From NCBI GenBank assembly GCA_009360345.1, contig SPDP01000001.1:124001-188000 (forward strand): a stretch of DNA of 64,000 nt. The letters run 5' to 3'. Below are positions 33,673 through 43,610 of the stretch, in pieces. Both the position numbers and the translations under genes were made by a program. Every line of letters begins with the position of its first letter. The first letter of the stretch is position 1. The DNA is from Alcaligenaceae bacterium SAGV5 (GTDB lineage: Bacteria > Pseudomonadota > Gammaproteobacteria > Burkholderiales > Burkholderiaceae_B). The notes under the pieces are model-generated. The model did no database searches and was not told the DNA's origin. It worked only from the letters and a program-made list of their open reading frames with translations.

Positions 33673-33999
33673 GTGGCAATGTTCAAAGCAATTCGCTTCA
33701 TCGCGCTGGGCCTTGCGGTCCAGGGGCCGGTGTTCGCGGCCGCGGAATCCTATCCGGCGGGGCCGGTGACCATCGTCGTGCCCTATGCCGCCGGCGGCCT
33801 GGCCGACAATATCGCACGTCCGATCGCCGATGCCCTGGGGCGTGAGTTGAAGCAACCGTTCATTGTGGAGAACAAGGGTGGGGCGGGAGGGCCCCGGCAC
33901 CCCGGACAAGACCTGCACCGCTGGTCGCGCAGATCCGCGGGCTTCAGTGCGGTCGGTCTTCTCTTCTTGAATGGGATAAAGAACTTTCGCCGTCCTTGA
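33673..33999 (+). pseudogene. truncated Bug-family receptor
   Basis: GTG start after GAGGAG, a signal peptide, then ESYPAGPVTIVVPYAAGGLAD and KQPFIVENKGGAGG, clear Bug residues up to about 33888. After that point the frame leaves the family: PRHPGQDLHRWSRRSAG and what follows have no Bug character. The frame stops at 109 residues against about 320 for the family. The last two-thirds are missing from the window. An expressed product would be an export signal plus one receptor lobe fragment, so I call it a pseudogene. It lies at the left border of the accessory region beside a 24-bp inverted repeat. Confidence 0.8.
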
Positions 34000-34029: not shown

Positions 34030-34090
34030 GTCCTTGACCGGTGGGGTGGGGCGCCCCACCGCGGGCCGCCCCACCCCACCGGTCAAGGAC
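34030..34090. repeat. 24-bp perfect inverted repeat
   Basis: Arms 34030-34053 and 34067-34090 are perfect complements of 24 bp, separated by a 13-nt spacer. The arm begins GTCCTTGACCGGTGGGGTGG. There is no U tract. It sits between the truncated Bug gene and the 3' end of the aconitase-family small subunit. It could be a strong factor-independent or bidirectional terminator, or a repeat left by a mobile element. Confidence 0.8.
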
Positions 34091-34113: not shown

Positions 34114-34644
34114 CTAGCGCGCCGCGAACTCGCCAGCCAGCGCGTTGACCAGCCCGCCGCTCTCCCAGATCCGCACCATCTGCGGCGAAAACGGCGGCGA
34201 CGGGATGACGCGGCCGTCGGCCAGTTCGATCGCGCCGGTGGCCGGCGTGACGCCGATCACGTCGCCGTCGGCCACGGCCTGCGTGATGCCGGGGACGAGC
34301 AGTATCGGCAGGCCCTGGCTGAGCGCCCGCCGGATGAAGCCCGATTCGCAGGATTCCACCAGCACCGCGGCGATGCCCGATGCCTTGATGGCGACGCTGA
34401 CTTCCACGTGGTTGTGATGCGCGAAGTTCTTGCCGCCGACGACGATGTCGCCCGGCTGGACGTTCGACGGGAATTCGGGCCGCAATTGGCGAAAACACAT
34501 CTGCCTGAGCGCGTCCAGGTCGAACGGCTTGCCGAAGCCGTCGCGCACCGCGGCGAATTCGATGATGCCGTCGTCGCCGCAGACCTGGTCGCCGAACTTC
34601 CAGACCCGGCCCCGCAGGGTGCGCACGGAGGATGCTTCGTTCAT
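34114..34644 (-). CDS. aconitase-family small subunit (LeuD-like)
   Basis: 176-residue swivel-domain subunit of a two-subunit hydro-lyase. The core reads GRVWKFGDQVCGDDGI at the N-terminus, VVGGKNFAHHNHVEVSVAIKASG (about residues 68-90; replaces the usual GxNFGxGSSREHA) and SFARRA-like SGFIRRALSQGLP. The FAHHNHVE variant is unusual: leucine biosynthesis enzymes have FGCGSSREHAP, so the substrate is likely to differ (dimethylmaleate, methylated or other C-branched dicarboxylates). It follows its large subunit with a 13-nt gap. Not the leucine pathway, because no leuB or leuA is nearby. Confidence 0.85.
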   Translation of the reverse strand: MNEASSVRTLRGRVWKFGDQVCGDDGIIEFAAVRDGFGKPFDLDALRQMCFRQLRPEFPSNVQPGDIVVGGKNFAHHNHVEVSVAIKASGIAAVLVESCESGFIRRALSQGLPILLVPGITQAVADGDVIGVTPATGAIELADGRVIPSPPFSPQMVRIWESGGLVNALAGEFAAR

Positions 34645-34657
34645 GTCGTGCCGCTCC

Positions 34658-35944
34658 TCAAAGCCGGCCCGCCAGCAGCGGGCGGGGGTCGGTGATCTCG
34701 CCGGCCACGGCCGAGGCCGCCACCGTATAGGGCGAGGCGAGGTGGACCGCGGCCTGGGTGCTGCCGTTGCGGCCCTGGTAGTTGAACTGGTGGGTGGTGA
34801 TCGAGACGTCCTCGCCGCTGAGCACGCCCAGGTAGCCCCAACAGGTATTGCAGCCGGGCGACAGCACGGTGGCGCCGGCCTCGGCGAACACCTCCAGCAA
34901 CCCTTCGCGGGCGGCCGCGGCGTAGACGTTCTGGCTGCCCGGCGAGATGTACATCGTGACGTGCTGTGCGATCCGGCGGCCGCGCAGCACGGCGGCCGTC
35001 GCCCGCATGTCTTCCAGCCGGTTGTTGGCGCAGGACCCCACGGCGGCCTGGTCGATGCGTCGGCCCGCCACTTGCGCGACGTCCACCGCGCCGCTTTGCG
35101 TGGGCGGCACGGTCACCATGGGGGTCAGTTGCGACAGATCGTAGGTCAGCACCGCCGCGTAGTCAGCGTCCGGGTCGCTGCGCAGGACTTGATACGGCCG
35201 GCCATCGGCGCGTTCGTCGACGTAGTCGAGCGCGCGCGCATCGACGTCCATGATGGCGGTATCGGACCCCGTGTGGAAGGTCGAGGCCAGGATGGCCTGC
35301 CGGTCGTCCAGGCTCAGCCCGGCCAGCGCCGGCCCGCCGTACTCGACGCAGCATTGCAGGAAGGTGCCCTGTTCCTCGTGGTCGCGAATGATGGACTGGA
35401 CCAGGTCGCGTCCGGTCACGCCGAAGGGCAGGCTGCCCACCAGTTCGATCCGTACCGTGCGCGGCACGCAGACCCAGTGCTGGTCGTTGAGCAGCGGCGC
35501 CAGCACGTCGGTGGACATGGAAATGTTCAGCGCGCCCACCGCGCCGATCGAGGCGATGTTGCCTTCGTCCGAAAAGACCAGGGACCCGGGCCGGGCGTAG
35601 CCGCGCTCGACCAGCACCAGGTGGCGCAGCCCGGTGTTGGGGCCGTAGAAGTTGTCGACCCCGAAGTCGCGCGTCAGCTGCTTGAGCATGTGATGCGTCG
35701 CGGCGTGCGGCGAACCGGTGGCGGCCGCCGGCGTGTGGTCGATGACGATGATGGCCTTCTCGGGCCGGGCGAACGAGGTCGCGCCTATTTTCTCCAGGTT
35801 GCGCTTGTGCATGGGCCAGACCATTTCCTGGGTGACCACGTGGTCCGGCACACAGTTGACGTATTCGCCCGGCGCCACGGTCTCGCGGCCCGCGGCGCGG
35901 GCGAGGATCTTCTGGGCGATGGTCTGGCCGGTGGAGGCTGGCAT
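34658..35944 (-). CDS. aconitase-family large subunit (LeuC-like)
   Basis: 428-residue 4Fe-4S hydro-lyase subunit. The three cluster cysteines are in VGSCANNR (about residue 296) and SPGCNTCWGYLG (about residues 356 and 359). It starts GQTIAQKILARAAGRETVAPGEYV, as LeuC/DmdA proteins do, and HTPAAATG holds the active-site histidine region. The protein is 40 residues shorter than E. coli LeuC and resembles the HacA/DmdA/LeuC2 branch. Together with the small subunit it should move water within a hydroxy-dicarboxylate. The pair follows a Bug receptor gene and is read in the same direction. Confidence 0.88.
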   Translation of the reverse strand: MPASTGQTIAQKILARAAGRETVAPGEYVNCVPDHVVTQEMVWPMHKRNLEKIGATSFARPEKAIIVIDHTPAAATGSPHAATHHMLKQLTRDFGVDNFYGPNTGLRHLVLVERGYARPGSLVFSDEGNIASIGAVGALNISMSTDVLAPLLNDQHWVCVPRTVRIELVGSLPFGVTGRDLVQSIIRDHEEQGTFLQCCVEYGGPALAGLSLDDRQAILASTFHTGSDTAIMDVDARALDYVDERADGRPYQVLRSDPDADYAAVLTYDLSQLTPMVTVPPTQSGAVDVAQVAGRRIDQAAVGSCANNRLEDMRATAAVLRGRRIAQHVTMYISPGSQNVYAAAAREGLLEVFAEAGATVLSPGCNTCWGYLGVLSGEDVSITTHQFNYQGRNGSTQAAVHLASPYTVAASAVAGEITDPRPLLAGRL

Positions 35945-35968: not shown

Positions 35969-36949
35969 TCAGTTCAGCGAGATGCCGGTTTCCTTGATGA
36001 ATTGGCCCCAGAACTCATAGCTGCCGAGGACGTTCTTGCGATATTGCTCGGGCGAGCTGGAGACGGCAAGCGAACCCATCTGCTCGTAGGCCTTGCGCAC
36101 CTCGGGCGTGGCCAGGATGGCCGCCAGCTCGCGCTGGACGCGGTTGACGATGGCGGCCGGGGTGCCGGGCGGCATGATGACGCCGTATTCGGTCGCCTGC
36201 ACGACCTTGGGGTAGCCCAGCTCGACCAGGGTGGGCGCGTTGGGCAGCAGCGGGGTCCGCTTCTCGGTGGTCACCGCCAGTACCCGGACGGTGCCCGCCT
36301 GCACGTGGGGCAGGATGGGGGTCAGGTCCGAGACCATGGATTCGACCTGTCCGCCCAGGAGATCGGTGATCGCGGGGGCCGCGCCGGCATAGGGCACGTG
36401 GACGATGTCGATGCCCGCCTCGCGCTTGAAGCGTTCGCCGGCCAGGTGGACCATGGTGCCGGTGCCCGCGCTGGCATAGTTCATCTTGCCGGGATGGCTG
36501 CGGGCGCGTTCCAGGAACTGCGCCATGTTGGTGATGCCGGATTTGGCGTTGACCGCGATGACGGCGGGCACCTGGGCCAGGCTGGAAACGTAGGTCAGGT
36601 CCTGCGTGACCGAATAGGGAACCTTCATCAGGTGGGGCATGACCATCAGCGCGCCTCCCGCGCCCAGGCCCATGGTGTAGCCGTCCGGCGGCGCCTTGGC
36701 CACGGCGGCGGTGCCGATCGAGCCGCCCGCTCCCGCGCGGTTCTCGACGACGATGGTCTGCTTGAGCGCTTCGCCCAGGGGGCCGGCGATGGTGCGCACA
36801 TAGGTGTCGGTCGGTCCGCCGGGTGGGAAGGGCACGATGAAGCGGATCGGTCGCGTGGGCCACGAGGCGTCCTGCGCCATGGCCGGTGCCGTGAAAATCC
36901 CCAGGGTGCAGCTCGCGATCAGGCATGCCGCAAGGCGTCTGGTGTGCAT
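35969..36949 (-). CDS. Bug-family tripartite tricarboxylate transporter receptor
   Basis: 326-residue periplasmic receptor. Signal peptide to about residue 25 (APAMAQ), then SWPTRPIRFIVPFPPGGPTD, ENRAGAGGSIGTAAVAKAPP and HVPYAGAAPAITDLL. The start at 36949 is the first Met with a signal peptide; the frame is open further but not credible. First gene of the Bug-LeuC-LeuD operon. It probably delivers a di- or tricarboxylate to the aconitase-type enzyme. A candidate LysR-type site (37051-37069) and a -10 (37001-37006) lie upstream. No TctAB pair is present. Confidence 0.93.
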   Translation of the reverse strand: MHTRRLAACLIASCTLGIFTAPAMAQDASWPTRPIRFIVPFPPGGPTDTYVRTIAGPLGEALKQTIVVENRAGAGGSIGTAAVAKAPPDGYTMGLGAGGALMVMPHLMKVPYSVTQDLTYVSSLAQVPAVIAVNAKSGITNMAQFLERARSHPGKMNYASAGTGTMVHLAGERFKREAGIDIVHVPYAGAAPAITDLLGGQVESMVSDLTPILPHVQAGTVRVLAVTTEKRTPLLPNAPTLVELGYPKVVQATEYGVIMPPGTPAAIVNRVQRELAAILATPEVRKAYEQMGSLAVSSSPEQYRKNVLGSYEFWGQFIKETGISLN

Positions 36950-37000: not shown

Positions 37001-37070
37001 ATGGTATCGGGCGGGCTTCGCCGCCGGATAGGCGCCGCCGCGCAAAGCTGCTATGGCGTGGGCGTTAACC
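37001..37070 (-). promoter_or_regulatory. candidate LysR site and -10 box, Bug-leuCD operon
   Basis: CTATGGCGTGGGCGTTAAC at 37051-37069 (plus-strand reading) shares CTATGGCG with the site at 41682. On the minus strand a TACCAT -10 lies at 37006-37001, its edge 54.5 bp from the site centre. The element overlaps the stop codon of the panE-like gene. This is the weakest of the three dyads. Confidence 0.35.
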
Positions 37071-38093
37071 GGGCGCGGCGTACAGGCCCAGCCGTTCGGC
37101 GCGCACCCGCGCCAGCGCATAGACCGTGTCGAGCAGCGGCGCGGGCACGCCCAGTTCGGCGGCGATCTCGACGGCCGCGCCCAGGATGCTGTCCAGTTCC
37201 ACCGCGCGGCCCGCTTCCACGTCCTGCAGCATCGAGGTCTTGATGTGGCCCAGCTTGCGCGTGACCGCCAGCCGCGCCGGGGGCTCGATGGCCAACGGCA
37301 GGCCCAGCGCGTCGCCCATGGCCAGCAGTTCGCGCATCATGGCCTGGAACAGGCGGTTGACGCGTTCGTCGTCGATCAGCAGGTCGGTGTGCGAGCCCGT
37401 CAGCAGGCTGACCGGGTTGAAGCAGGCGTTGCCCAGCAGTTTTTCCCAGACGATGCGGCGGATGTCGGGGTTGGCGGATGCCTCGAAGCCGGCGGCGGCC
37501 AGGCACGCGGCCACGTTCTGCGCGCGCGGGCTGGCGCCGCCGCCCGGCTCGCCCACCACCAGCCGCGACCCCGAGGCGTGGGCGACCACGCCGGGTTCGG
37601 GGCAGGAGCTGGAGGGAAACACCACGAAACCCAGGATGCGGTCCGCGGGGATGGCGTGTTCGAGCCGGCCGTCGGGATCCACGGCGCGCAGTCGGTGGCC
37701 GGCCAGCGGGCCGCCGCCCGACTGGAAGAACCACCACGGGACGCCGTTCAGGGCGGGCAGTACGAGGGTGTCCGGTCCGATCATGGGACCCAGGCGGTCG
37801 GCCAGGCCGGGCAGCGACGGCGACTTGACCGCCAGGATCAACAGGTCCTGGGGGCCCAGCCGCTCCGGATCGTCGCTGGCGCGGACGCGGGCGGCCGATC
37901 GCGCGCCGCCGCTGTCCAGCCGTATGCCGTGTTCGTCCAGCGCGCGCAGCGTGGCGCCCCGCGCCAGCACGCTGACGTCGTTGCCCGCCAGGGCCAGGCG
38001 GGCGGCCAGAAAGCCGCCGATGGCGCCCGCGCCGGCGACGCCTATCCTCAGGCGGGCAGGGGTGGGCGGGGTCTGGTCGTGCGCGTCGTTCAT
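37065..38093 (-). CDS. ketopantoate reductase family protein (PanE/ApbA-like)
   Basis: 342-residue NADPH-dependent 2-hydroxyacid dehydrogenase. Rossmann motif RIGVAGAGAIGGFLAARLALAG (about residues 18-39); catalytic lysine expected in LLILAVKSPSL and in KLLGNACFNPVSLLTGS (about 230-247). Catabolic clusters often contain PanE homologues unrelated to pantothenate; with no other pan gene here, I expect reduction or oxidation of a 2-oxo/2-hydroxy acid of this pathway. The start at 38093 is chosen because the longer frame begins with charged, unlikely residues. It diverges from the CoA-transferase gene. Confidence 0.82.
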   Translation of the reverse strand: MNDAHDQTPPTPARLRIGVAGAGAIGGFLAARLALAGNDVSVLARGATLRALDEHGIRLDSGGARSAARVRASDDPERLGPQDLLILAVKSPSLPGLADRLGPMIGPDTLVLPALNGVPWWFFQSGGGPLAGHRLRAVDPDGRLEHAIPADRILGFVVFPSSSCPEPGVVAHASGSRLVVGEPGGGASPRAQNVAACLAAAGFEASANPDIRRIVWEKLLGNACFNPVSLLTGSHTDLLIDDERVNRLFQAMMRELLAMGDALGLPLAIEPPARLAVTRKLGHIKTSMLQDVEAGRAVELDSILGAAVEIAAELGVPAPLLDTVYALARVRAERLGLYAAPG

Positions 38094-38210
38094 CGATGAG
38101 GTCTCCTGAGGGAATGGCCGTGAGGTCTGGCCCATTATTCCGGTCCGCGCCGCGCGCGCGGTGTACCCCCGCGGCATTTCTGCCTGCGCGCCGCGGATAT
38201 AGCGCGCACG

Positions 38211-38280
38211 TTATGCGCATGTACGCATTGCAGTCTTGCCGGCCCAGGCAGTAGGCAAGCCCGCGCCGCGCCCCTAGAGT
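38211..38280 (+). promoter_or_regulatory. candidate LysR site and -10 box, CoA-transferase operon
   Basis: TTATGCGCATGTACGCATTG (38211-38230) contains the dyad ATGCG-6-CGCAT. A TAGAGT -10 lies at 38275-38280, with its edge 54.5 bp from the dyad centre, inside CGCCCCTAGAGTC. The same arrangement, including a near-identical CGCCTAGACTC -10 context, occurs at 41682-41750. Confidence 0.5.
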
Positions 38281-38349
38281 CCGGACTGCGGCGACAGGCG
38301 CGGACGGGACGAGACGCGTCCGGCCGTCGGCGCGAACGCGGAGGAATGT

Positions 38350-39579
38350 ATGCATCGATCGACGGGCCCGTTGTCGCACGTCAAGGTCCTGGACCTGAGC
38401 CGTATCCTGGCCGCCCCCTGGGCCAGCCAGACCCTGGCCGACCTGGGCGCCGACGTCATCAAGGTGGAGCGCCCGGGCAGCGGCGACGACACCCGCGCCT
38501 GGGGACCGCCCTTCCTGAAGGACGGCCGGGGCGAAGATACCGAAGAAGCCGGCTATTACCTCGCGGTCAACCGCGGCAAGCGGTCGATCACGGTCGGGCT
38601 CGACACGCCCGAAGGCCAGCGCATCGTGCGGGAACTGGCCATGCGCGCCGACATCCTGCTTGAAAACTACAAATTCGGCACGCTGGCGCGCTACGGGCTG
38701 GACGAGGCGTCGCTGCGCGCCCTGAACCCGCGGCTGATCTATTGCTCGGTCACCGGCTTCGGGCAGACCGGGCCGCGCCGCGACCAGCCCGCCTACGACT
38801 TCCTGATACAGGCCATGGGCGGCCTGATGAGCGTGACCGGCGAGCGCGACGGCCGTCCCGGCGGCGGTCCGCAGAAGGTGGGCGTGCCCATCGTCGACCT
38901 GATGACCGGCATGTACACGGCGGTAGCCGTGCTGGCCGCGCTGGCCCGCCGCAACGAGACGGGCAAGGGCGAGTACATCGACATCGGCATGTTCGACGTG
39001 CAGGTGGCCACCCTGGCCAACCAGGCGATGAACTACCTTGTGTCCGGCAAGCCGCCCCGGCGCAACGGCAACGCCCATCCCAACATCCAGCCGCAGGACG
39101 TCTACCGCTGCGCCGACGGCGACATCATCCTGGTGGTGGGCAACGACGGCCAGTTCCGCAAGCTGTGCGAGGCCCTCGGCCACGCGGAATGGGCGGCGGA
39201 CGAACGCTACGCCACCAACGCGCAGCGGGTGCGCCATATCGAACGGTTGTCGGCGATGCTGCGCGAGGATCTCGCGCGGCGCGACCGCGCGAGCCTGCTT
39301 GCCTTGCTCGACGGCGCCGGCGTGCCGTGCGGCCCGATCAACACCGTGGCCGAGGTGTTCGAGGAGCCGCAGACGATCGCGCGCGGCCTGCTGCGCCATA
39401 TCGAGCATCCCAGCGGAGGCCGGGTCCCGCAGGTCGCCAGTCCCATGCGGTTCGCCGACGCGGCGCTGCCGGGTCTCGCGGCGCCGCCCACGCTGGGCCA
39501 GCACAGCGCGGAGATCCTGGCCGAGCTGGGCTACGACGCGGCCGGCATCGAAGCGTTGCGCGCCGCGGGCGCCATCTGA
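38350..39579 (+). CDS. CaiB/BaiF family (class III) CoA-transferase
   Basis: 409-residue CoA-transferase. It starts with LSHVKVLDLSRILAAPWASQTLADLGADVIKVE-type residues; the catalytic aspartate is in VPIVDLMTGMY (about residue 184). NPRLIYCSVTGFGQTGP and AYDFLIQAMGGLMSVTG are family hallmarks. Such enzymes move CoA from succinyl- or another acyl-CoA onto a carboxylate such as itaconate, mesaconate, oxalate or citramalate. Here it probably activates a dicarboxylate or aromatic acid. GAGGA precedes the ATG at 38350. The downstream GST-like gene starts 11 bases after its stop. Confidence 0.92.
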   Translation: MHRSTGPLSHVKVLDLSRILAAPWASQTLADLGADVIKVERPGSGDDTRAWGPPFLKDGRGEDTEEAGYYLAVNRGKRSITVGLDTPEGQRIVRELAMRADILLENYKFGTLARYGLDEASLRALNPRLIYCSVTGFGQTGPRRDQPAYDFLIQAMGGLMSVTGERDGRPGGGPQKVGVPIVDLMTGMYTAVAVLAALARRNETGKGEYIDIGMFDVQVATLANQAMNYLVSGKPPRRNGNAHPNIQPQDVYRCADGDIILVVGNDGQFRKLCEALGHAEWAADERYATNAQRVRHIERLSAMLREDLARRDRASLLALLDGAGVPCGPINTVAEVFEEPQTIARGLLRHIEHPSGGRVPQVASPMRFADAALPGLAAPPTLGQHSAEILAELGYDAAGIEALRAAGAI

Positions 39580-39590
39580 TGGGAGTGGAC

Positions 39591-40205
39591 ATGAAGCTGC
39601 ACTGGTCGCCCAAGTCGCCGTATGTACGCAAGGTCATGGTCTGCCTGTACGAGCTCAGGCTGGAGGAGCGCGTGGAGCGCGTGCGGTCGGTCGCGGCCAT
39701 GCTGCGGCCCAATCCGCAGATCATGCGCGACAACCCGCTCAGCAAGATCCCCACGCTGGTATTGGACGACGGCATGGCCTTGTTCGATTCGGCGGTCATC
39801 TGCGAATACCTGGACGACCTGGCCGGCGGCGACCTGTTTCCTGCCCGGAGCGAGGAAAAGTGGCGGGCCCTGCGCTGGCATGCCTTCGCCGACGGCCTGC
39901 TGGATGTGCTGATCCTCTGGCGCAACGAGGCCGACCGGGACGCGGCGCAGCGCTCGGATGCGCTCATCGATGCCTTCCGGATCAAGACCGAGGCATCGCT
40001 GCGCCGGCTGGAGGGCGAGGCGCGGGAACTGGCGGCTGCCCCGTTCGGCATCGGCCACATCGGGCTGGGCTGCGCGCTGGGCTACCTGGATTTCCGCTTT
40101 GGCGCGCTGCAATGGCGCGAGCGGGCGCAGCACCTGGCCGCATGGTACGACGAAATCGCGGCGCGGCCGTCCTTCCGGCGCACGGAGCCCGTGCTGGAAG
40201 GATGA
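39591..40205 (+). CDS. glutathione S-transferase family protein
   Basis: 204-residue GST-fold protein. The N-terminal thioredoxin domain starts KLHWSPKSPYVRKVMVCLYEL, with a Ser at the glutathione-activating position (SPKSPYV), and carries SKIPTLVLDDGMALFDSAVICEYLDD. The all-helical C-terminal domain follows (about 85-200). An ATG at 39579 overlapping the upstream stop is possible, but 39591 has GGGAGTGG at the right distance. Co-transcribed with the CoA-transferase. It may isomerise or detoxify a maleyl-type intermediate (maleylpyruvate-isomerase-like role); this is speculation. Confidence 0.85.
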   Translation: MKLHWSPKSPYVRKVMVCLYELRLEERVERVRSVAAMLRPNPQIMRDNPLSKIPTLVLDDGMALFDSAVICEYLDDLAGGDLFPARSEEKWRALRWHAFADGLLDVLILWRNEADRDAAQRSDALIDAFRIKTEASLRRLEGEARELAAAPFGIGHIGLGCALGYLDFRFGALQWRERAQHLAAWYDEIAARPSFRRTEPVLEG

Positions 40206-40212
40206 GCGCGCC

Positions 40213-41049
40213 TTATGCGTAGAGCCGGGTCGGGTTGTCGACCAGGATCCGGCGCGCCAGCGGTTCGCTGTCGGTCCACGCCAGGAAGGTGTCGAACAGC
40301 CGGCGCGTGCCGGGCCACGGATCGATGCGGATGTGGGGCCAGTCGCTGCCCCAGACGAGCTGGTCGGGATTGGCCTCGACCAGGGCGCGATGGAAGGGGC
40401 GGCCGGGCTCCGGGTCCGGCGTATCCAGCAGGCTGCGGTAGGCCGACAGCTTGACCCAGGCCTTGCCGTCGCCCAGCAGCCTGGCCAGTTGCTGGAAACC
40501 CGGGTCGTCCGTGCCCGCCTCCACGTCGAAGCTGCCCATGTGGTCGATCACGACCGGGCAGGGCAGGTCCGCCAGCACCGGCGCGATGCCCGGCAGGGCC
40601 CGGCAGTCGGTCCACAGTTCGACGTGCAGTCCGGCATCGGCCACCGCGCGGGCCATCTGTTGGAGATCCTCGATCGAGGCGCTGCCGGCGAAATTCCCGG
40701 CCGCGCCGCTGCGGTGGCTGTAGCGCAGCGCGCGCACGCCGCGTTCGCGCAGCGTGGCCAGGTCCAGCGGCGTGCCCGGGCGCGCGACGATGACGCCGCG
40801 CAGGTGATCTTGCGCCGCCAGCGCATGGAACAGCAGCGAATAGTCTTCCCCGTACGCGCTGGGATGCACCAGCACCGCGTGCGACAGCCCCTGGCTCGCG
40901 AGCATGGCCGAGTGGTCCGCGACCAGCGCTTCCGGCGGCGTGTAGCTGCGTTCGGCCGCCAGCGGAAAGCGGTCGTAGGGGCCGAGCAGGTGGTTATGGC
41001 AATCCCAGCCCGTGATCGGGGTGGCGGCCTGCCGCGTGCCGCCGCTCAT
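40213..41049 (-). CDS. amidohydrolase family protein (PDC-hydrolase-like)
   Basis: 278-residue metal-dependent TIM-barrel hydrolase of the amidohydrolase-2 group that includes 2-pyrone-4,6-dicarboxylate lactonase. Landmarks: GWDCHNHLLGP (His-x-His), HAVLVHPSAYGED, VIDHMGSFD and QLVWGSDWPH (active-site Asp) at about residue 236. These enzymes open lactones or decarboxylate aromatic acids. Overlaps the upstream carboxymuconolactone-decarboxylase-like gene by 4 nt (ATGA). The pairing suggests a lactone step. Substrate unknown. Confidence 0.88.
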   Translation of the reverse strand: MSGGTRQAATPITGWDCHNHLLGPYDRFPLAAERSYTPPEALVADHSAMLASQGLSHAVLVHPSAYGEDYSLLFHALAAQDHLRGVIVARPGTPLDLATLRERGVRALRYSHRSGAAGNFAGSASIEDLQQMARAVADAGLHVELWTDCRALPGIAPVLADLPCPVVIDHMGSFDVEAGTDDPGFQQLARLLGDGKAWVKLSAYRSLLDTPDPEPGRPFHRALVEANPDQLVWGSDWPHIRIDPWPGTRRLFDTFLAWTDSEPLARRILVDNPTRLYA

Positions 41050-41633
41050 CGTGCCTTGCCCCAGACCGCCTCGTCGTCCTGGGGTAGCGGGAAGGCGGCG
41101 ACGACGCCGGGTTCCAGGGGGATTTCGTGCGCGTTCAGCGTCATCGCCACCAACGTGTAGTAACCGATCAGCGCGGTCAGCTCCACCACCGCGCGCGCGC
41201 CGAAACGGGCCAGCGTCGCGGCATAGGTGGCGTCGGACACCGACCGGTGGGCGTTCAGCTCGCTGGCGTAGCGCACCACCAGCGCATCGTCCTGCGCCAG
41301 CTCGATGGGGATGCGGCGTTCGCGCAGCGCCTCGATGATCCAGGCTTCCACGCCCGCCTTCTCGGCCTCGGTCTTGTGGGCGGCCCACTCGAAGGGCGAG
41401 CTGCAGGCCCGGGCCGTGACCAGGATGGCCAGTTCCGACAGCCGGGGCGGCAGCGTGGTGTCGTAGCGCAGCAGTTCGCCCATGGCCGACCAGCGCTCGG
41501 CCAGCTCGGGGTTGTACAGCGCGGCGCGCAGCGGGCCACGCAGCCGGCCACGCTTGCCGGCGATGACTTTGTCGTGCACCCGGCGTTGTTCCGGGCTCAT
41601 GGTTTCGGGCGTGGGCAGGTCGATTCTCGGCAT
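41046..41633 (-). CDS. carboxymuconolactone decarboxylase (CMD) family protein
   Basis: 195-residue CMD/AhpD-like protein. Family signs are VTARACSSPFEWAAHKTEAEKAGVE (about residues 73-97, where AhpD-like proteins have a CxxC; here the pair is replaced by single C) and VELTALIGYYTLVAMTLNAHEIPLEPG. So it resembles the non-redox CMD branch. The family covers gamma-carboxymuconolactone decarboxylase and many unknowns. The start at 41633 follows GAGGAG; an upstream in-frame Met is less likely. First gene of a two-gene operon with the amidohydrolase. It diverges from the enoyl-CoA hydratase gene. Confidence 0.85.
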   Translation of the reverse strand: MPRIDLPTPETMSPEQRRVHDKVIAGKRGRLRGPLRAALYNPELAERWSAMGELLRYDTTLPPRLSELAILVTARACSSPFEWAAHKTEAEKAGVEAWIIEALRERRIPIELAQDDALVVRYASELNAHRSVSDATYAATLARFGARAVVELTALIGYYTLVAMTLNAHEIPLEPGVVAAFPLPQDDEAVWGKAR

Positions 41634-41681
41634 GGGCTCCTCTCGTCTTGCACGCATTATCGGGCGCGCCGCCCGCGCGCG

Positions 41682-41750
41682 CTATGGCGCCGGGCGCATA
41701 GCAGCCTTGACCGCGCCCGCCTTTGCGCGGGTTGCGCGCGCGCCTAGACT
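41682..41750 (+). promoter_or_regulatory. candidate LysR site and -10 box, enoyl-CoA hydratase
   Basis: CTATGGCGCCGGGCGCATAG (41682-41701) is a dyad with arms CTATG/CATAG. A TAGACT -10 at 41745-41750 starts 53.5 bp from its centre. Same layout as at 38211-38280. It lies between divergent genes, so it may serve both. Confidence 0.5.
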
Positions 41751-41786: not shown

Positions 41787-42563
41787 ATGAACGAATTCAA
41801 GCAACTGCAACTGCGGGTGGATGGCCACATCGCGCTGGTGACCCTGGACAGCCCGCCGGTCAATGCCCTGACCCGCGTGCTGAACGATGAACTGACCGCC
41901 GCGCTGGACTGGATATCCGAGACGCCCGAGGTCCGGGTGGTGGTGCTGACCGGGGCGGGGAAGGTGTTCTGCGCCGGCGCCGACCTGAAAGGGCGGGCCG
42001 ACGTGATCAAGGGTCCGGGCGACCTGCCCGCTCACCTGCGCCGCACCCGCGAGTGCTTCCACGCCATCCGCGAATGCGCCAAGCCCGTGGTGGCGGCCAT
42101 CAACGGCCCGGCGCTGGGATCCGGGCTGGCCATGGTGGCCTCGGCCGACGTGCTGATCGCCTCCGAGCGCGCCTCGCTGGGCCTGCCCGAAGTGGACGTG
42201 GGCCTCTTGGGCGGATGCCGCCATGCGATGCGCCTGTTTCCCCATTCGCTGCTGCGGCGCATGATGCTGACCGGCTACCGGGTGCCGGCGGCCGAACTCT
42301 ACCGGCTCGGCATCGTCGAGGCCTGTACGGCTCAGGAAGACCTGCTGCCCGCCGCGATGGAGATGGCCGGCGTCATCGCCGCCAAGAGCCCCGTCTCCAC
42401 GCGCATGGGCAAGCACACGCTGAACACCATCGAGGACATGAGCCTGCGCGACGGCTATCGCTACGAACAGGACATGACAGCGATCATCGCCACCACCGAG
42501 GATGCCGCCGAGGCGCAGGCCGCGTTCCGCGAAAAGCGGGCGCCGGTGTTCAAGGGGCGGTAG
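41787..42563 (+). CDS. enoyl-CoA hydratase/isomerase family protein
   Basis: 258-residue crotonase-fold enzyme. The oxyanion-hole segments are FCAGADLKGRAD (about residues 62-73) and INGPALGSGLAM (about 109-120); the second carries SG rather than GG. The catalytic position LPEVDVGLLGGC (about 141-152) has E and D, so both acid sites may be filled. Family roles include hydration, isomerisation, decarboxylation and hydrolysis of acyl-CoAs. Here it probably acts on the product of the CoA-transferase. Own promoter with the dyad at 41682; the LysR gene starts 84 nt downstream. Confidence 0.9.
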   Translation: MNEFKQLQLRVDGHIALVTLDSPPVNALTRVLNDELTAALDWISETPEVRVVVLTGAGKVFCAGADLKGRADVIKGPGDLPAHLRRTRECFHAIRECAKPVVAAINGPALGSGLAMVASADVLIASERASLGLPEVDVGLLGGCRHAMRLFPHSLLRRMMLTGYRVPAAELYRLGIVEACTAQEDLLPAAMEMAGVIAAKSPVSTRMGKHTLNTIEDMSLRDGYRYEQDMTAIIATTEDAAEAQAAFREKRAPVFKGR

Positions 42564-42647
42564 CGGCCGGGCGGAGGTCCAGGGCGCCCCGCGACGCGCG
42601 GGCGGGGTATAAACTCGTCTTCTTTTCCTGGACGAGCGCCGCTTGCG

Positions 42648-43610
42648 ATGCAGCATCCGAAAGCCACCAGCATCCAGCTGGACGTCACCGCCAGCCTGCA
42701 GAAATGGCGGGCTTTTCTCGCGATCGGCGAACTGGGCAGCCTGACGCGCGCGGCCCTGTTCCTGAACAGCAATCAATCCTTGCTCAGCCGGCAGTTGAAC
42801 GCGCTCGAACGCGAGTGCGGCACGCGGCTGTTCGTGCGCACCGGCCGGGGCGTGGAGCTGTCGGACGTGGGGCAGCGCATCTTCCCCCAGGTGCGCGCGC
42901 TGCTGGCCGATGCCGAGCAACTGGAAAGCGAGATCCGCGAGCAGGCGCGCGACGCCAGTGGCCGCGTCACGCTGGGCACCCTGCCGTCCATCGGCCACCA
43001 TCTGGTGGGCCAGCTCTTCACCGAGGTGCGGGCCCGCTATCCCGGCGTCAACCTGAAGGTGCTGGAAGGATCCAGCGGCCAGGTCGAGGAGTGGCTGGTC
43101 GACGCGCGGGTGGACATCGGCATCCTGTACCGCTACGGCGGCGCGTTGCCCGAGCATGAGCAGTGTCTGGCCACGGTGGACAGCTACCTGATCGGGCCCG
43201 CGGGCGACCGCCTGACCGCGCAGGAGGAAGTGCCCTTCCGCAGCCTGCACGAGCTGCCCTTCATCCTGCCCAGCGCGCCCAACGGGCTGCGCACCGCGCT
43301 CGATTCCATCGCGCGCCAGGAACACATCACGCTGGCCCCGGTGATCGAGGCCGATTCGCTGCCGCTCCAGGCCTCGCTGGTCGCGCGCGAGCGGCTGTAC
43401 ACGGTGCTGCCGCTGCACGCGGTATGGACCGAGGTCGGCAAGGGCGAGGTGCAGGCCGCCCGCATCGTCGATCCGCCGTTCCAGCGCGCCGTCGCGCTGG
43501 TCTTCGCCAAGACCAAGGGGCCAGGCAAGGCCGTTTCGGCCATCGCGGGCCTGATCGGCGAGATCGTGGACAGGATGGCGCGCGACGGCATGTGGCGGAC
43601 CGACCGCTAA
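42648..43610 (+). CDS. LysR-family transcriptional regulator
   Basis: 320-residue LysR regulator. Helix-turn-helix at about residues 20-80 (WRAFLAIGELGSLTRAALFLNSNQSLLSRQLNALERECG, with RTGRGVELSDVGQRIF), followed by a linker helix and the periplasmic-binding-protein-like effector domain (about 105-300). Centrally placed and read away from the CoA-transferase, amidohydrolase and aconitase-type genes. It is the only regulator for them and the best candidate binder of the three dyads (37051, 38211, 41682). A TATAAA about 40 bp upstream might be its own -10. Effector unknown. Confidence 0.92.
   Translation: MQHPKATSIQLDVTASLQKWRAFLAIGELGSLTRAALFLNSNQSLLSRQLNALERECGTRLFVRTGRGVELSDVGQRIFPQVRALLADAEQLESEIREQARDASGRVTLGTLPSIGHHLVGQLFTEVRARYPGVNLKVLEGSSGQVEEWLVDARVDIGILYRYGGALPEHEQCLATVDSYLIGPAGDRLTAQEEVPFRSLHELPFILPSAPNGLRTALDSIARQEHITLAPVIEADSLPLQASLVARERLYTVLPLHAVWTEVGKGEVQAARIVDPPFQRAVALVFAKTKGPGKAVSAIAGLIGEIVDRMARDGMWRTDR

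Follow-up and report, generated by a model that had tools for sequence, protein, structure and literature searches.

A conserved 13-bp element as the candidate operator of a LysR-type regulator in an Alcaligenaceae catabolic gene cluster

We analysed a window of 64,000 nucleotides from Alcaligenaceae bacterium SAGV5 (bases 124001-188000 of contig C8 in the 6.01-Mb genome, placed from 150 of the 249 rows of a listing), in which catabolic genes flank a LysR-type regulator gene at 42648. The original prediction had tied nine of these genes into one LysR regulon through three dyads at fixed distances from three −10 boxes. We found that the three promoters share one conserved 13-bp element at a fixed distance from the −10 box, and we consider it likely that the three sites are operators of the 42648 protein, within an activator-type regulon that would include sites in trans and serve an itaconate-like CoA pathway for a C5 dicarboxylate. 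The first observation is real and stronger than was reported, with its dyads drawn in the wrong register. The sites and presumed promoters are as follows (bit scores are from the search model R1; the genes are described further below).

41697..41709, placed for both directions: operator 1, CATAGCAGCCTTG, between CMD-Amid (minus strand) and ECH-LysR (plus strand); R1 45.4 bits
41681..41686, plus strand: left arm GCTATG of the ECH-side dyad; TATG in 8/8 ECH promoters
41745..41750, plus strand: −10 box TAGACT of ECH-LysR, conserved in the aligned genomes
41656..41661, minus strand: −10 box GATAAT of CMD-Amid, in 8/8 genomes
38226..38238, plus strand: operator 2, CATTGCAGTCTTG, before CaiB-GST, 49 bp before the −10 box in 8/8 genomes; R1 41.2 bits
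38211..38215, plus strand: left arm TTATG of operator 2; TATG in 8/8 CaiB promoters
38275..38280, plus strand: −10 box TAGAGT of CaiB-GST, conserved in the aligned genomes
37043..37055, minus strand: operator 3, CATAGCAGCTTTG, before Bug-leuC-leuD; R1 36.2 bits
37001..37006, minus strand: −10 box TACCAT of Bug-leuC-leuD, conserved in the aligned genomes
38175..38187, minus strand: weak operator (half-site) GCAGGCAGAAATG facing KPR, of which only the right half fits
38134..38139, minus strand: presumed −10 box AATAAT of KPR

The 13-mers CATAGCAGCCTTG (ECH), CATTGCAGTCTTG (CaiB) and CATAGCAGCTTTG (Bug) start 48, 49 and 49 bp before the −10 box, and in the aligned intergenic regions they are followed by 35 or 36 bp and then by TAGACT, TAGAGT or TACCAT. 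The distance from CAT to the −10 box is 48 bp in all eight ECH promoters and 49 bp in all eight CaiB promoters, while at the Bug promoter it is 49 bp in five of seven genomes and 48 bp in the other two. The pattern CATNNCWGNNWTG fits all 23 promoter-genome pairs (8 ECH, 8 CaiB, 7 Bug). Loss of conservation in related strains, which would have spoken against the proposal, was not what we observed: site and spacing are kept to within 1 bp in seven congeneric genomes, SAGV5 included, and at two promoters also in one genome of another genus.

The inclusion of all nine catabolic genes also requires the CMD-Amid and KPR promoters, and both have a site at the 48-bp geometry. On the opposite strand the ECH 13-mer reads CAAGGCTGCTATG and starts exactly 48 bp before the GATAAT of CMD-Amid in 8/8 genomes, including locus L030, and a single near-palindrome is therefore equidistant from two divergent −10 boxes. 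The KPR half-site GCAGGCAGAAATG starts 48 bp before AATAAT in six of seven genomes and 47 bp before it in the seventh (L026). Counting these two, every one of the nine catabolic genes has a site, that of KPR being weak. A GATATA at 38196-38201, between both sites of the KPR-CaiB gap, is also kept in the seven congeneric genomes.

The element is rare outside the cluster. In the whole SAGV5 genome the pattern CATWGCAGYYTTG, which was derived from the three sites themselves, has exactly three matches, the three window sites, compared with two for the reversed control. Across 11 genomes of the genus it finds exactly the three sites in six, again including SAGV5, and two in G009, where the CaiB site differs by one base; it is exclusive to the cluster in the seven genomes whose LysR is 93-100% identical. 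G001 and G006, with a LysR 62% identical, have no match. Two congeners that have no LysR orthologue, G005 and G010, contain three scattered matches each, so that a small number of chance matches has to be reckoned with in any one genome. When a position weight matrix was trained on two promoters and run over 127,918 positions, the third appeared at rank 3 (ECH), 10 (CaiB) or 22 (Bug); besides the two training sites on top, 0, 7 and 19 other positions, respectively, ranked higher. A coding match at 39526 scored above the CaiB and Bug sites when each of these was held out. With R1, the window contains three strong matches only, the next reaching 11.2 bits. A match of 11 bits within the CaiB coding sequence at 39529 is weak, and no −10 box was seen by eye at the right distance from it.

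We aligned 22 promoters from this and other genera, hand-picked from those inspected (alignment A1). Invariant pairs are A22/T32 and C26/G28 (22/22), with C21/G33 close behind (21 and 20 of 22). The conserved columns are symmetric about the A/T of column 27 and yield the consensus CATANCWGNTWTG; one promoter (L068) carries the perfect palindrome CATAGCTGCTATG. Columns 22, 23, 26, 28 and 32 of the 13-mer hold 2.0 bits each, against 0.2-1.0 bits for columns 7-10 of the left arm. In the −10 box the T, the A and the final T are invariant. No conserved −35 hexamer is present in the 22 promoters, only two columns between the box and the −10 reaching 70%. Columns 43-44, at about −38, have G in 17/22 and C in 19/22, which may be part of an activation site or chance.

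The letters, coordinates and distances of the three original dyads were correct, and their 54.5, 54.5 and 53.5 bp are measured from the centre of each dyad to the initial base of the −10 box (37060.5 to 37006, 38220.5 to 38275 and 41691.5 to 41745). The ECH-side dyad, GCTATG-N10-CATAGC, is good and that of CaiB, TTATG-N10-CATTG, weaker, but the Bug site is no dyad in this register: its supposed opposite arm, TAACC (complement GGTTA), overlaps the KPR stop codon at 37065-37067. The symmetric core that is conserved widely has a length of 13 bp and lies about 11 bp nearer the −10 box. Counted from the presumed −10 boxes, the centre of the 13-mer is at about −54 and that of the optional left dyad at about −65.

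The element also travels with the regulator across the family. We searched a set of 268 genomes for the LysR protein (E<=1e-85, 8 candidates per genome) and for the R1 site (E<=0.002, stricter filters, 17 candidates per genome). LysR was found in 43 genomes and the site in 46; 37 have both, six LysR only and nine the site only. The site is thus present in 37/43 genomes with LysR and in 9/225 without it (Fisher p 1e-30, kinship ignored), and excluding the 14 training genomes left 24/30 versus 8/224 (p 2e-21, kinship likewise ignored). Of the 104 rows of R1 matches, 79 are no farther than 20 kb from the LysR gene; they come from 34 genomes, and 27 of these have two or more such places. Two pairs of the 79 rows (G172, G191) each represent a single site counted on both strands. 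Other genera usually have the order CaiB-ECH-CaiB...Bug-LysR, facing GST-CMD-Amid, and despite the changed gene order the sites precede CaiB and, in some genomes, GST (upstream of CMD-Amid) or Bug. Across the family genomes, operator and LysR co-occur and the operators stand by the target promoters, as a regulon would require. Of the regulon claim, our results support three promoters that have a conserved element in common at a fixed −10 distance, a single LysR gene in the cluster and co-occurrence with that gene; they do not support the dyad register or the third dyad.

Beyond the window, a pattern blind to the −10 box gave 21 oriented matches in the SAGV5 genome, 18 of them outside the window sites. 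Three of these 18 have a TANNNT at 48-49 bp, compared with 0.05 expected, and they precede a Bug gene (934.9 kb), a CaiB gene (1060.1 kb) and another Bug gene (1139.8 kb). In the R1 search of the same genome the window sites (E 4.6e-11 to 7.0e-8) were followed by the two distant Bug sites (1.2e-4 and 4.3e-4) and the distant CaiB site (0.011); the remaining matches among the best 150 of 11254 all had E >=0.048. G005 and G010, taken as the LysR-less comparison for these trans targets, also have no second Bug gene (Bug2) at E<=1e-95, and their best R1 matches reach E 0.097 and 0.136.

The Bug gene at 1139.8 kb is preceded by MaoC and CitE genes, whose best models are the itaconate-breakdown enzymes RipB/Ich and RipC/Ccl, both matched below the cut-off. 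It belongs to a block MaoC-CitE-Bug2-flavin reductase-like-...-GST (positions 7424-12913 of L164, about 1138.4-1143.9 kb on contig C8). In five congeners the same MaoC-CitE-Bug2 block with its operator sits next to the cluster, at its GST-leuD end; in G009, a sixth congener, the Bug gene and operator of the block are on the contig of the cluster. In SAGV5 the block is about 975 kb from the cluster and the operator is still beside its gene; homology ends next to leuD at one edge and past the GST gene at the other. This arrangement amounts to a natural experiment, since one half of the cluster and its operator have a distance of about 975 kb from the rest here but are adjacent to it in five congeners. 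At the edge where synteny with the congeners stops lies an open reading frame of 106 codons (33679-33999) that begins like TctC/Bug and departs from the family after about 70 codons (tblastn match 33727-33888). Between leuD and the rearrangement edge, at 34030-34090, a perfect inverted repeat of 24 bp around a 13-bp loop may be a terminator.

By Pfam and NCBIfam profiles the gene order of the cluster is leuD-leuC-Bug (minus strand), KPR (minus), CaiB-GST (plus), Amid-CMD (minus) and ECH-LysR (plus). It is identical in the six congeners with the LysR orthologue, and G021, from another genus, retains LysR, ECH, CMD-Amid and CaiB-GST. The named relatives with a LysR 93-98% identical are Pigmentiphaga strains, members of the Alcaligenaceae, and one Burkholderiales metagenome-assembled genome.

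42648..43610, plus strand: LysR-type regulator P0001, the presumed binder; Pfam HTH_1 and LysR_substrate
42608..42613, plus strand: TATAAA, a −10-like element, aligned in 7/7 congeners
41787..42563, plus strand: ECH, enoyl-CoA hydratase/isomerase family; NCBIfam PRK06495, 437.8 bits (cut-off 296)
41046..41633, minus strand: CMD, carboxymuconolactone decarboxylase-like; Pfam CMD
40213..41049, minus strand: Amid, Amidohydrolase_2 family; Pfam
39591..40205, plus strand: GST, glutathione S-transferase-like; Pfam
38350..39579, plus strand: CaiB, family III CoA-transferase; nearest model succinate--glutarate CoA-transferase, 484.8 bits, below the cut-off of 750
37065..38093, minus strand: KPR, 2-dehydropantoate 2-reductase family; profile match
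35969..36949, minus strand: Bug, TctC/Bug solute receptor; Pfam TctC
34658..35944, minus strand: LeuC-like large subunit; profile match
34114..34644, minus strand: LeuD/DmdB-like small subunit; profile match 99.9, below the cut-off of 108.95

The 42648 protein is LysR-type by both domains (HTH_1 61 bits, cut-off 26.6; LysR_substrate 116.4 bits, cut-off 28). It had been called the only LysR gene, and a tblastn search of the window with the protein agreed, giving no second LysR (next best E 0.10). We propose that LysR, as a dimer forming part of a tetramer, recognises the 13-bp pseudo-palindrome CATANCWGNTWTG, which would be centred near −54 if the −10 box starts at −12. The co-inducer would be a pathway intermediate, and RNA polymerase would be recruited to promoters with a good −10 box and no conserved −35 hexamer, in keeping with activation rather than repression. 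The predicted cis targets are Bug-leuC-leuD, CaiB-GST and ECH-LysR, with CMD-Amid served through the other face of the ECH site and KPR through its own weaker site; in trans, two further Bug receptors and a second CaiB would be controlled. The gene content suits a route in which a C5-type dicarboxylate is imported (Bug), activated with CoA (CaiB), hydrated and cleaved by a lyase, much as in itaconate breakdown; such an acid is the candidate substrate. The left arm is present at the ECH and CaiB sites and absent at the Bug site, and a second CATA half-site may therefore be used as an accessory at divergent promoters; GCTATG at 41681..41686 is perhaps such a half-site, facing CMD. LysR itself is probably raised through the ECH promoter together with the conserved TATAAA at 42608..42613, perhaps the regulator's own promoter.

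Several observations weigh against this proposal or qualify it. The consensus is loose: of the three window sites, that of Bug alone is an exact match to CATANCWGNTWTG, those of ECH and CaiB fitting CATNNCWGNNWTG, and the palindromic pairs are matched in 4/6 (ECH), 3/6 (CaiB) and 5/6 (Bug) cases. The T-N11-A motif is not conserved, in that no pair of A1 columns 12 apart has T and A both in at least 13/22 promoters, a check made by alignment column. The −10 boxes are presumed from sequence, and binding by LysR is inferred. Several sites (those of the congener promoters, the divergent and KPR sites and the distant sites) were located with expressions written after the alignments had been viewed. 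The promoters used to train R1 belong to a cluster that in any case travels with LysR, and related genomes do not count as independent evidence. An operator before LysR itself was sought and rejected, the ECH-LysR gap having no R1 match. At the threshold, R1 finds no site in six of the 43 genomes with LysR: G006 has a weaker match before the Bug gene beside its LysR (E 0.028; G001 likewise, 0.012), G034 and G253 have only CATAGCTGACTTG before LysR and no fitting −10 box, and G143, G145 and G149 have an altered symmetric box, CAATTCWGAATTG, before the adjacent Bug gene at the same distance. In these last three (loci L073, L076 and L075) CAATTCWGAATTG lies 129-141 bp before the Bug match and 48-49 bp from a −10-like hexamer, and the LysR is 50-51% identical; this LysR branch may here use a variant of the box, as co-evolution of regulator and box would give, a pattern seen in only three genomes of one genus. 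Conversely, nine genomes carry the site and no LysR at the threshold. We followed up seven of the nine, leaving out G035 and G275: G117 (L204) and G048 (L039) show the box with a −10 at 48, G258 and G186 (L207, L208) have the 13-mer and no −10 at that distance, and from G195, G202 and G203 (L205, L209, L206) the script recovered no 13-mer. Some of the nine may be false matches.

The operator could instead be TATG-N10-CATA, a dyad with its centre at about −65, and what remains of the 13-mer only flanking sequence. This position is the usual one for recognition sites of LysR-type transcriptional regulators (LTTRs; PMC8407307), TATG is kept at two promoters in 8/8 genomes, and GATATG-N10-CATATC in L034 and L035, from another genus, resembles a symmetric change of both arms. 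We nevertheless regard this as unlikely and rejected the register as the core: TATG occurs in 7/22 aligned promoters, being absent in 15/22 and at the Bug site, and the left-arm columns carry far less information than those of the 13-mer. Slightly less probable again is that the operators are real and bound by another protein, either a paralogous LysR with a similar DNA-reading helix (C11:61193 in SAGV5) or several related LysR proteins sharing the box. The paralogue is 37% identical to the 42648 protein, its helix is close to that of the site-bearing LysR clade, and the distant sites could be its targets, a further point to be set against our proposal; a half-site with TAGACT at the right distance (C11:57057-57108) lies 4 kb from it. 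Related LysR-Bug pairs have similar boxes such as CAATTCWGAATTG and CAATGCTGATATG at the same distance, and the nine site-only genomes lack a close LysR. Against this, the 42648 protein is the only LysR at hand for the window sites and accompanies them in the seven congeneric genomes and G021, and 79/104 family match rows are within 20 kb of this same LysR.

LTTRs can repress, and columns 43 and 44 are conserved between box and −10, so that the element might serve repression, or be a core-promoter feature that these promoters share and that has nothing to do with LysR. This seems improbable to us, as a centre near −54 and the lack of a conserved −35 hexamer fit an activator and the presence of the element follows LysR across the family. 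Chance similarity in GC-rich DNA would draw on the shortness of the motifs, the post hoc choice of pattern and the three scattered matches in each of the two congeners without the orthologue; it is hardly credible beside the hold-out ranks, the exclusivity to the cluster and the fixed spacing, and conservation already contradicts it. Operation of the sites by the 42648 LysR remains the reading we prefer.

The element offers a directly testable candidate operator for a LysR clade present in 43/268 family genomes, and a handle on the substrates of Bug receptors. These receptors are a large, mostly unassigned group in these bacteria, and their Bug/TctC family corresponds to COG3181. We found no description of this regulon in the open-access literature searched. 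The kind of system is ordinary, and the particular circuit looks undescribed. We are evenly divided on the broader view that it represents an undescribed LTTR branch (at least 43/268 family genomes) with a non-canonical 13-bp box near −54, divergent promoters driven symmetrically from one box, an itaconate-like regulon for a C5 dicarboxylate in which several Bug receptors are controlled in cis and in trans, and operators kept through operon reshuffling and a chromosomal split.

Several known systems invite comparison. In the ict-ich-ccl (ripABC) itaconate pathway (PMC7397319), whose regulator ItcR is described as an itaconate-binding LTTR (PMC9636186), a LysR regulator, a CoA-transferase, a MaoC hydratase and a CitE-type lyase occur together as they do here, the latter two having RipB/Ich and RipC/Ccl as best models. 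However, our MaoC (148.1 bits, cut-off 340) and CitE (174.5 bits, cut-off 375) fall far below the equivalog cut-offs, and leuCD, GST, CMD, the amidohydrolase and KPR are extra. With the NCBIfam equivalog cut-offs missed by CaiB, MaoC and CitE, no known pathway, including ict-ich-ccl, could be assigned. Among 41 PDB sequences matched by the 42648 protein, ItcR (7w06, 7w07, 7w08; E 8.6e-13) was not the best, a similarity at the general LTTR level, and we treat ItcR as no more than a parallel in function. A LysR encoded near AhpD-like and TctC genes in Advenella, deleted jointly with an Xre regulator, is reported as required for growth on 3,3'-dithiodipropionate (PMC5373536). In Comamonadaceae, footprinting predicted that an LTTR controls catabolic enzymes and COG3181 proteins; the motif given for the CatR-like regulon there is an odd palindrome that fits T-N11-A, with CatA, CatB and CatC homologues as targets (PMC6449761). 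The classical LTTR operator is a T-N11-A box (PMC8407307, PMC6449761) in a site near −65 (PMC8407307). With the classical catabolic regulons of CatR, ClcR and BenM, our system shares a protein of HTH_1 and LysR_substrate domains, a palindromic operator at a fixed distance upstream of the −10 box and targets that flank the regulator. In contrast to them, its box is CATA-N5-TWTG-like, centred near −54 and without conserved T-N11-A columns, its regulator follows ECH rather than diverging from a target, and it has several operators per cluster together with sites in trans.

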